A stretch of 64,000 nt of DNA from Erythrobacteraceae bacterium. GTDB lineage: Bacteria; Pseudomonadota; Alphaproteobacteria; Sphingomonadales; Sphingomonadaceae. Position 1 is the stretch's first letter; each line of letters starts with the position of its first letter. A model generated the notes under the pieces. That model was not told where the DNA came from. It made no database searches and saw only the letters and a list, made by a program, of their open reading frames with translations. A program made the translations under genes and the position numbers. The stretch is taken from assembly GCA_027486035.1 (NCBI GenBank), contig JAIXPX010000011.1, positions 44,579 to 108,578 of the forward strand, given 5' to 3'. Positions 24,084 through 30,985 of the stretch are shown one piece after another.

Positions 24084-24812
24084 ATGCAAAAGGGTGGTTG
24101 GTCGAAAACCGGGATGGCGGCGGCAGCAGCAGCGGGGCTGGCGCTGGCGGGGTGTTCCGACGCCGCCGACGAGGCGATCGCGCCCGGGCAGGAGATCGCC
24201 GCAGACGGCAAGCCCGCGCTGCCCGCGATCCCGGTGATGGGGCCGGAGCGCAGGATCATCGCCTTCGGGGACAGCCTGTTCGCGGGCTATGGCCTCGATC
24301 CGCGCGATGCCTATCCCGAAAAGCTGGAGAGTGCGCTCAGGGCCAGGGGCATCAATGCCGAGGTGGTCAACGCCGGGGTCTCGGGGGATACGACCGCTGC
24401 CGGGCTGAACCGGCTGGAATTCACCCTCGCCGCGCAGAAGGACGGGCCCCCGGCGCTGTTCATCCTCGAGCTGGGCGGCAATGATCTGCTGCGCGGGCTC
24501 TCGCCGCAGGAGACCAGGGCCAATCTCGGCAAGATGCTGGCTGTCCTACGCGAGCAGAAGGTGCCAGTCCTGTTGATGGGGATGCGCAGCCCGCCCAATT
24601 ACGGCCCCGAATACCAGGCGCAGTTCGATGCGATCTACCGCGATCTGGCGAAGGAATACGGGGCCACGCTGATCCCCTTCTGGCTCGAGGAGATCTATCG
24701 GGATCCCTCGCTGTTCCAGCAGGACCGTATCCACCCCACGGCTGACGGGGTCGAACGGCTGGTTGCCTCGACTCTGGCCGAGGTCGAAGACGCGCTTCCG
24801 GCGGTTAAATAG
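24084..24812 (+). CDS. Arylesterase / SGNH-GDSL hydrolase (TesA-like)
   Basis: LALAGCSDA lipobox; IIAFGDSLFAGYGL; NAGVSGDTTAAGLNRLE; LELGGNDLLRG; DRIHPTADG. Confidence 0.93.
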   Translation: MQKGGWSKTGMAAAAAAGLALAGCSDAADEAIAPGQEIAADGKPALPAIPVMGPERRIIAFGDSLFAGYGLDPRDAYPEKLESALRARGINAEVVNAGVSGDTTAAGLNRLEFTLAAQKDGPPALFILELGGNDLLRGLSPQETRANLGKMLAVLREQKVPVLLMGMRSPPNYGPEYQAQFDAIYRDLAKEYGATLIPFWLEEIYRDPSLFQQDRIHPTADGVERLVASTLAEVEDALPAVK

Positions 24813-24857
24813 CGTTTTTTCAATGGTTTCATGATTTCGCAGGCCGTTTCAGGCCCT

Positions 24858-24940
24858 GTCCATGTGCGTCCAGAGCCCGTCCAGACCCGTCCAGACCCCT
24901 GCTAGACCCGCTCCACACCCCCGCCAGACACCCGCCAGAT
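24858..24940 (-). repeat. Helically phased array of ~GTCTGGANGGG units (array A)
   Basis: CCA/CTA cores on + strand begin at 24860, 24870, 24881, 24891, 24902, 24913, 24924, 24935 (spacing 10-11). Confidence 0.75.
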
Positions 24941-25990
24941 CGCGGATTCCGCGCGGATCGCGGCGAATGGGGCAAGTTCGGTGCCGGTCATCCAGACCTG
25001 CGCCTTGCCGGCCCGGAGCCGGTTGAACAGCTCGGTCCGGCGGAGGGGATCGAGGTGTGCGGCAACCTCGTCGAGGAGAAGGACGCTCGGGCGCCCGGCA
25101 GCAGCAAGGATGCCGTGGGCGAGAGTGATGGCGATCAGCATCGCCTTCTGCTCGCCGGTCGAGCAGGCCGCGGCAGGCTGTCTCGTGGAGGCCATTTCGA
25201 CAAGCAATTCATCGCGTTGTGCGCCCGTGAGCGCGCGGCCTGCGGCCCGGTCGCGGGGCCGCCCCCGGGCGAGTTCGGCGCGCAGCTCGGTCGCGTCGAG
25301 CGGACCGCCCGGTCGGTAGGTGAGGGTGGGGCGCGCGAAAGGCTCGGGCGGCAGGGCGGAGAGCTCGTCAGCGAGGCGAAGCACCAGGTCGGCGCGGGTC
25401 CGCCCGACCGCCGCGCCATGATCGGCGGCCTGCGCCTCGACCGCGTCCAGCCAACGCGGATAACTCTGATTTTCCAGCAATTTGCCACGTTCTCGCAGGG
25501 CCGTTTCAAGGGCATTCACCCGCCGCGCATGGTCGGGCGCAATCGCCAGCGCCATCCGGTCCATGAACCGCCGCCGTGCGCCGGCGCTGTCGGTGAAGAG
25601 CCCGTCCATGGCAGGGGTCAGCCACGAGAGCGCGAGCCATTCGGCGAGGCTCGCCGCGCTCGCCGGAGCGCCGTTGACCCGCACCAGCCGGCGACCGGGC
25701 TGGCCGGGTTCGGTATGGGTGCCGATCCGCGCCGAGACTGTCCCTGCTTCCGTCAGGCTTGCGCCGATGGCGAAGGGGAGAGGGGTTGCTCCCGGCACGG
25801 CGCGCCTGGCAAGGTCGCCCAGATTGGCGCGCCGCAGCCCGCGCCCCGGCCCGAGGAGGGACAGGGCTTCGAGCAGGTTGGTTTTCCCGGCGCCGTTTTC
25901 GCCCACCAGCAGGTTGAAATGCGCCGTCTCGCCCAGCGTGGTCGCCGCGTGGTTGCGGAAGTTCTCGAGGCTGATCCGGCTGAGGCCCAT
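24902..25990 (-). CDS. recF: DNA replication/repair protein RecF
   Basis: MGLSRISLENFRNHAATTLGETAHFNLLVGENGAGKTNLLEALSLLGPGRGLR; STGEQKAMLIAITLAH; PSVLLLDEVAAHLDP. Confidence 0.95.
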   Translation of the reverse strand: MGLSRISLENFRNHAATTLGETAHFNLLVGENGAGKTNLLEALSLLGPGRGLRRANLGDLARRAVPGATPLPFAIGASLTEAGTVSARIGTHTEPGQPGRRLVRVNGAPASAASLAEWLALSWLTPAMDGLFTDSAGARRRFMDRMALAIAPDHARRVNALETALRERGKLLENQSYPRWLDAVEAQAADHGAAVGRTRADLVLRLADELSALPPEPFARPTLTYRPGGPLDATELRAELARGRPRDRAAGRALTGAQRDELLVEMASTRQPAAACSTGEQKAMLIAITLAHGILAAAGRPSVLLLDEVAAHLDPLRRTELFNRLRAGKAQVWMTGTELAPFAAIRAESAIWRVSGGGVERV

Positions 25991-26152
25991 GGCGGGCATT
26001 CGGGTAGCGGGAGGGGGGCGGTTTGGCCAGTGCGAGCGAGGTGAAATCAGCAATCCCAACAGATGGGAAAAACTCCCAAGCTTTCGCTTCGCTGAACCGG
26101 TGGTTTGCGGGCTGACACCCGAGAAGTGGCGGAAAACTGCCGTTTTTCCCGT

Positions 26153-30425: not shown

Positions 30426-30441
30426 TGTTTCACGTGAAACA
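30426..30441. promoter_or_regulatory. parS (ParB-binding site)
   Basis: TGTTTCACGTGAAACA, exact 16-bp chromosomal parS palindrome. Confidence 0.88.
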
Positions 30442-30452
30442 CGGATTTACGG

Positions 30453-30525
30453 CAGGTCTGCAAGGCGTCTGGCGGGGGCCTGAACGCATCTGGAGGGGGT
30501 CTGGAAGGGGCCTGGAGCGGCTCTC
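30453..30525 (+). repeat. Helically phased array of ~GTCTGGANGGG units (array B)
   Basis: CTG cores begin at 30458, 30469, 30480, 30490, 30501, 30512 (spacing 11, 11, 10, 11, 11). Confidence 0.75.
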
Positions 30526-30603
30526 GCCCCACCTCGAACGCACGGGGCCTCGCCGCATCGCCATGCCCGTCCACTTCACATTCAGGATGGAGGCGCTATA
30601 TCC

Positions 30604-30985
30604 GCTCTCGCCGGTTTCGGCCGGCTATGGCGATAAACTGCTGCGTGCAATAGGCGCAACGGACCCGGGGGCAGTACCCGGCGGCTCCACCACTTGGGCC
30701 GAGCAACACGATCAGCATGCGTGAAGCGTGCCGACCGGGCGGCTCAGCTGATGGGGCCGAACCAGGATCGACGTGTGTTGAAAAGCGTAGTTTTCGCCCG
30801 GGCTGAGTAACCCGCATAAGGCTCAAAAACCATAAGTGCCAACGACAACGAAGCACTTGCTCTCGCTGCGTAATGTGACGGCCTAGCGGCCTGAATTTAC
30901 AAAGCTACGAGCACGGTTCGGACCGAACCGGGTAACAGAATCGGAAACCGGGCGCCCGGGGGAGCGTAGCAACAGAATCCCCCAC
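30604..30985 (+). ncRNA. ssrA: Permuted two-piece tmRNA (acceptor piece ending ~30692; coding piece from ~30753); outer ends approximate
   Basis: CCCGGGGGCAGTACCCGGCGGCTCCACCA (T-arm/CCA end, 30692) precedes GGGGCCGAACCAGGATCGACGTG (5' piece, 30753); GGGGCCG pairs with CGGCTCC; tag ORF GCC AAC GAC AAC GAA GCA CTT GCT CTC GCT GCG TAA = ANDNEALALAA at 30838-30873. Confidence 0.93.

Follow-up and report, generated by a model that had tools for sequence, protein, structure and literature searches.

The phased arrays of short units described here appear to belong to a composite element, in which they form an arm on one side of parS, and such elements may serve as distributed ParB-loading sites that organize the chromosome, an interpretation from sequence to which we give about an even chance. 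The observations behind it are that the sites adjoining the arrays are parS, that the arrays keep a fixed phase and polarity relative to parS, that the elements are dispersed and lie at gene 3' ends, that their positions are conserved and their arrays turn over fast, and that they are restricted to one clade. The window, which is the whole 64,000-nucleotide stretch of DNA that was analyzed, contains two arrays, A and B, and the features discussed below are as follows.

24114..24812, + strand: GDSL esterase/lipase gene, convergent with recF (PF13472, 106 bits)
24852..24904, - strand: array A proper, phased units 3' of the recF stop, without parS
24902..25999, - strand: recF (TIGR00611, 206.9 bits)
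24905..24940, - strand: sequence resembling array units, within the 3' end of recF, encoding conserved RecF residues AIWRVSGGGVERV
30426..30441, no strand assigned: parS TGTTTCACGTGAAACA, exact by sequence match, of the element that contains array B
30457..30520, + strand: array B, a phase-locked ladder with cores at 30469, 30480, 30490, 30501, and 30512

An earlier note on this DNA had described a minus-strand array at 24858-24940, and the sequence does read that way. We located nine cores, starting at 24938, 24927, 24916, 24905, 24894, 24884, 24873, 24863, and 24852 (core-to-core steps of 11, 11, 11, 11, 10, 11, 10, and 11), and TRF detected the array independently. The identity of RecF is secure (206.9 bits against a TIGR00611 cut-off of 172), its TAG stop at 24904-24902 is embedded in an array unit, and recF (-) faces the GDSL esterase gene (+), whose transcript would bear the C-rich strand of the array; the stop and the convergent arrangement are both as previously described. 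The further proposal that coding and array constraints overlap here was not supported by comparison with relatives, since the RecF C-terminal residues AIWRVSGGGVERV are kept both with and without the array. The units inside recF are thus explained by conserved RecF residues, and array A proper spans only ~24852-24904. Among the recF loci compared, the C-terminal residues stay conserved and the non-coding array is mostly missing: it is present 3' of recF in the genome containing the window (G000), G030, and G016, weak in G003, and absent in most other relatives. An inverted repeat, CGTCATTGCGAGC...GCAATGACG, was also seen at gene ends in G024 (L170), where it lies at the recF junction, and in G007 (L270).

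To place array A in its genome (2.55 Mb in 52 contigs), we scanned the whole assembly for TCTGGANNNNGTCTGGA with one mismatch permitted, using the reversed pattern as a control. There were 54 matches compared with 1 for the control, so array A is not a chance occurrence, and the dispersed class of elements that the earlier note had postulated is supported. Most of the ~36 arrays found initially adjoin an exact or near-exact copy of parS, TGTTTCACGTGAAACA, and in the flanks that were inspected this site lies upstream of most arrays, on the same side every time. Array B is typical in this respect; just 3' of it, at 30571-30964 on the + strand, is a permuted tmRNA gene (alpha_tmRNA, tag ANDNEALALAA). 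Array A is atypical: it is one of several arrays without parS, and is thus a parS-less member of the class. The earlier description, supported in part, had missed that most other members are built on parS in a fixed phase.

The exact 16-mer occurs at 40 places in G000, with near matches besides, and exact 14-mer cores number 44 in G000 and 55 in G003, a genome assembled as a single 3.09-Mb contig (detailed sequence comparisons used stretches around the sites). These sites match the 16-bp consensus palindrome of chromosomal parS, TGTTNCACGTGAAACA (PMC7022226). The dispersed sites also have the same sequence as the genome's own origin cluster, which lies beside mnmG, rsmG, and the cognate ParA-like and ParB genes; in this genome, the cluster beside parAB is without arrays. 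A Noc system was considered and rejected: parS-rich G003, G011, and G033 (parS counts of 55, 52, and 38) have a single parB_part match each, with no dedicated ParB paralog found in these three, so a Noc-like paralog is not needed. In five genomes (G000, G003, G034, G007, and G013), parS lies within an open reading frame of the same gene without a clear array (L095, L148, L246, L266, and L280).

The arrays are locked in phase to parS. Across 85 elements from two species (G000 and G003), cores defined as NCTRR start 16/17, 27/28, 38, 48/49, 59/60, 70, and 81 bp after parS. Inter-core distances are 11, 21/22, 32, and 43 bp, with a best period of 10.7 bp, so that the 10-11-bp phasing first noted is true helical phasing. 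The coherent power of core offsets relative to parS is 238, where ~1 is expected at random; the array side was taken to be the one more similar to the unit consensus, a choice that alone would not produce a fixed parS offset. On the array side, A/T content oscillates with a period of 10.8-10.9 bp; no periodicity was detected on the opposite parS flank. The phase of this oscillation is steady across 100 bp and its amplitude drops from 0.23 to 0.06 moving away from parS. Units of other kinds, TCAAAA and GCAAGG among them, also occur in G003, so in general form a unit supplies one C(T/A)RR step and one G/C tract in each helical turn. A third species set (G024, G014, G016, G030, and G033) was chosen by the array pattern and is thus no independent evidence for arrays. 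The array is not universal: at the dispersed sites of G034, G022, and G007 it is weaker or of a different kind, with no clear lock to parS. Other ~11-bp phased units near parS, of the GCTTTG type and the GTTGTTGC type, were seen in G034 (L251, L226) and G022 (L228, L235, L254); they are possibly species-specific versions of the array, and their aggregate phase lock is not clear.

Such phasing could instead mark gene ends as places where gyrase, or a nucleoid protein, wraps DNA; the arrays would then correspond to BIME-2 of Escherichia coli, with parS as a partner site. With A/T steps and G/C tracts placed in phase with the helix, wrapping would be favored where convergent genes gather positive supercoils. 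Gyrase sites in E. coli show phased G/C variation, were modelled with a turn of 10.7 bp, and are found preferentially downstream of transcribed units (PMC6379681). The elements described here share the helically phased G/C variation (10.7-10.9 bp) and the enrichment between convergent genes. The gyrase motif, however, consists of 47 bp periodic, 36 bp central, and 47 bp periodic segments (PMC12393610), whereas the averaged array is continuous and one-sided, fading from parS over ~100 bp, with no two arms around a 36-bp core. We consider a wrapping site of this kind unlikely.

The elements are located at gene 3' ends. We oriented 100 intergenic elements so that the array lay on the right: 56 were flanked by convergent genes, 7 by divergent genes, and the others by tandem genes, 24 in one order and 13 in the other, with genes called by a simple codon model under which single assignments may be wrong. 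Convergent gaps thus account for 56% of elements (56/100) versus 12% of neighboring gaps (34/287). The left stop lies ~13-20 bp from parS and the right stop ~103-117 bp beyond it; therefore, the element fills the intergenic gap. This location, together with a C-rich, G-poor strand read by the adjoining convergent gene, would also suit a Rho-dependent terminator, in which the transcript of the gene ending beside the array would carry the C-rich strand as its rut site. The spacing, however, tracks the DNA helix (11, 21/22, 32, and 43 bp) and keeps a fixed register with a DNA site, which weakens the rut-site reading. In tandem gene pairs, whose orientation is informative, the terminator orientation was seen 24 times versus 13 (p = 0.10). 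Such a terminator strikes us as quite improbable.

On the chromosome of G003, whose origin lies near the parS cluster at ~0.95 Mb by GC skew, 48 of the 55 exact parS sites are spread round the 3.09-Mb circle and are not confined to the origin domain. The nearest two dispersed sites are 8.3 kb apart (P = 0.0008); spacing is not regular, being random overall (CV 0.91, P 0.35) except for this short-range exclusion, and depletion of parS near ter was not significant in this genome. The repeat is G-rich and strand-asymmetric, as might be expected of a polar replication or recombination signal resembling KOPS or Chi. The earlier note had proposed mapping array orientation, and in this closed genome it is independent of replication arm (~14+/11- on one arm versus 11+/11- on the other). 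The missing arm bias already largely refutes a KOPS- or Chi-like role, which we regard as extremely improbable.

The parS sites are scattered over the whole chromosome in one Erythrobacter/Porphyrobacter branch. More than six parS cores were found in this genus only among 301 genomes of the order, and the highest count outside the genus was 9 among 399 genomes of the phylum. In a RecF tree, one clade with support 100/100 comprises 16 species, of which 15 carry at least 8 parS; the sole exception, G021, has no exact parS cores. The ParB HTH region of G021 (L288), which falls in or beside the expanded clade, reads TQVEIAKLVDKSRSHIANMHRL; that of most expanded species reads IQVDIAKMVEKSRSHVANMMRL. 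The array pattern is strongly enriched in G024, G014, G033, G003, G016, G011, and G030, with other genus members at about background, and exact matches to GTCTGGAGGGGGTCTGGA in a species-level collection came almost entirely from Erythrobacter, Porphyrobacter, or Sphingomonadales MAGs.

Between G000 and G003, 19 of 46 gene junctions are common by strict comparison (28 by loose comparison). At 23 orthologous sites, identity is 98% for parS and 43% for the arrays, compared with 39-41% for unrelated arrays aligned on parS and ~27% for shifted alignments. Orthologous arrays are thus no more similar to each other than unrelated ones, and the constraint is therefore on phase and consensus rather than on copied sequence; the array sequence turns over nearly completely as phase and consensus persist. 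Dozens of dispersed copies, with arrays that differ between species, could reflect a mobile or REP-like repeat that was copied around the genome and serves no host function. However, the non-array flanks are unrelated (28% identity), which speaks against a transposable element, the 39-41% identical arrays are nonetheless in phase, and the sites are common to species with nearly invariant parS; a repeat of this sort is very unlikely. More distant clade members have some junctions with parS in common, and such arrays are weak or missing there, which suggests that parS dispersal preceded the arrays. Since dispersed parS is present in G007, G034, G013, and G022, where arrays are weak, different, or undetectable, the arm is not required for its persistence.

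We therefore return to the composite element, which would consist of parS followed by up to ~nine helical turns of the phased C(T/A)RR and G/C-tract unit. ParB is predicted to load at dispersed parS as at the origin cluster. Starting from parS, one face of the array might then be occupied by an assembling protein, which could be ParB itself, a partner of ParB, or a protein that wraps DNA. Some 45-55 such sites, at least ~8 kb apart in G003, could act as distributed anchors that organize the chromosome, the role that the earlier note had also thought the more plausible. By limiting or directing the spread of ParB, the arm might be what allows this lineage to tolerate parS far from the origin. 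Against distributed sites, by analogy, is the finding that an extra parS placed away from the origin (mid-arm) lowers fitness in Caulobacter (PMC5815017), and parS-less arrays and array-less dispersed parS count against a composite element. We would tentatively propose, at somewhat less than even confidence, a new chromosomal element in which dispersed parS sites each nucleate directional assembly on a rapidly evolving phased array, making ParB a genome-wide organizer in one clade. We found no prior description of such elements in the open-access literature, where a search combining parS, ParB, and Erythrobacter gave incidental mention only. A culturable genus with ~50 dispersed parS, most of them locked to a helical array, would reveal how distributed ParB loading can be tolerated, or exploited, by a chromosome. 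Natural comparisons are available among its relatives: some lack dispersed sites, some have them with weak arrays, and some have both sites and arrays.

Chromosomal parS normally occurs in few copies near the replication origin. The sites described here share with known ParABS systems the 16-bp palindrome and an origin cluster beside parAB; they differ in lying at gene ends all over the chromosome, in numbers that reach 44-55 exact copies in the richest species, and in mostly carrying a one-sided, phase-locked array, whereas the usual parS is confined to the origin domain. The Noc sites of Bacillus are likewise ParB-family sites spread over the chromosome, but the sequence used here is parS itself and no extra ParB or Noc paralog is needed. 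BIME/REP elements and the gyrase motif of E. coli resemble these elements in their placement at gene 3' ends and in convergent gaps and in their phased G/C content; unlike them, the elements have no 36-bp core and no palindromic REP units and are one-sided and tied to parS. Plasmid centromeres of the ParR/parC type consist of ~11-bp direct repeats, and they too combine helical phasing of short repeats with a link to partition; here, however, the units are chromosomal, dispersed, degenerate, and attached to parS, and a ParMR system is not implied. Finally, Pseudomonas aeruginosa ParB contacts half-parS sites genome-wide, which has been suggested to shape topology (PMC7022226); genome-wide ParB contacts are predicted here as well, but at complete palindromes that carry arrays and often keep their positions.
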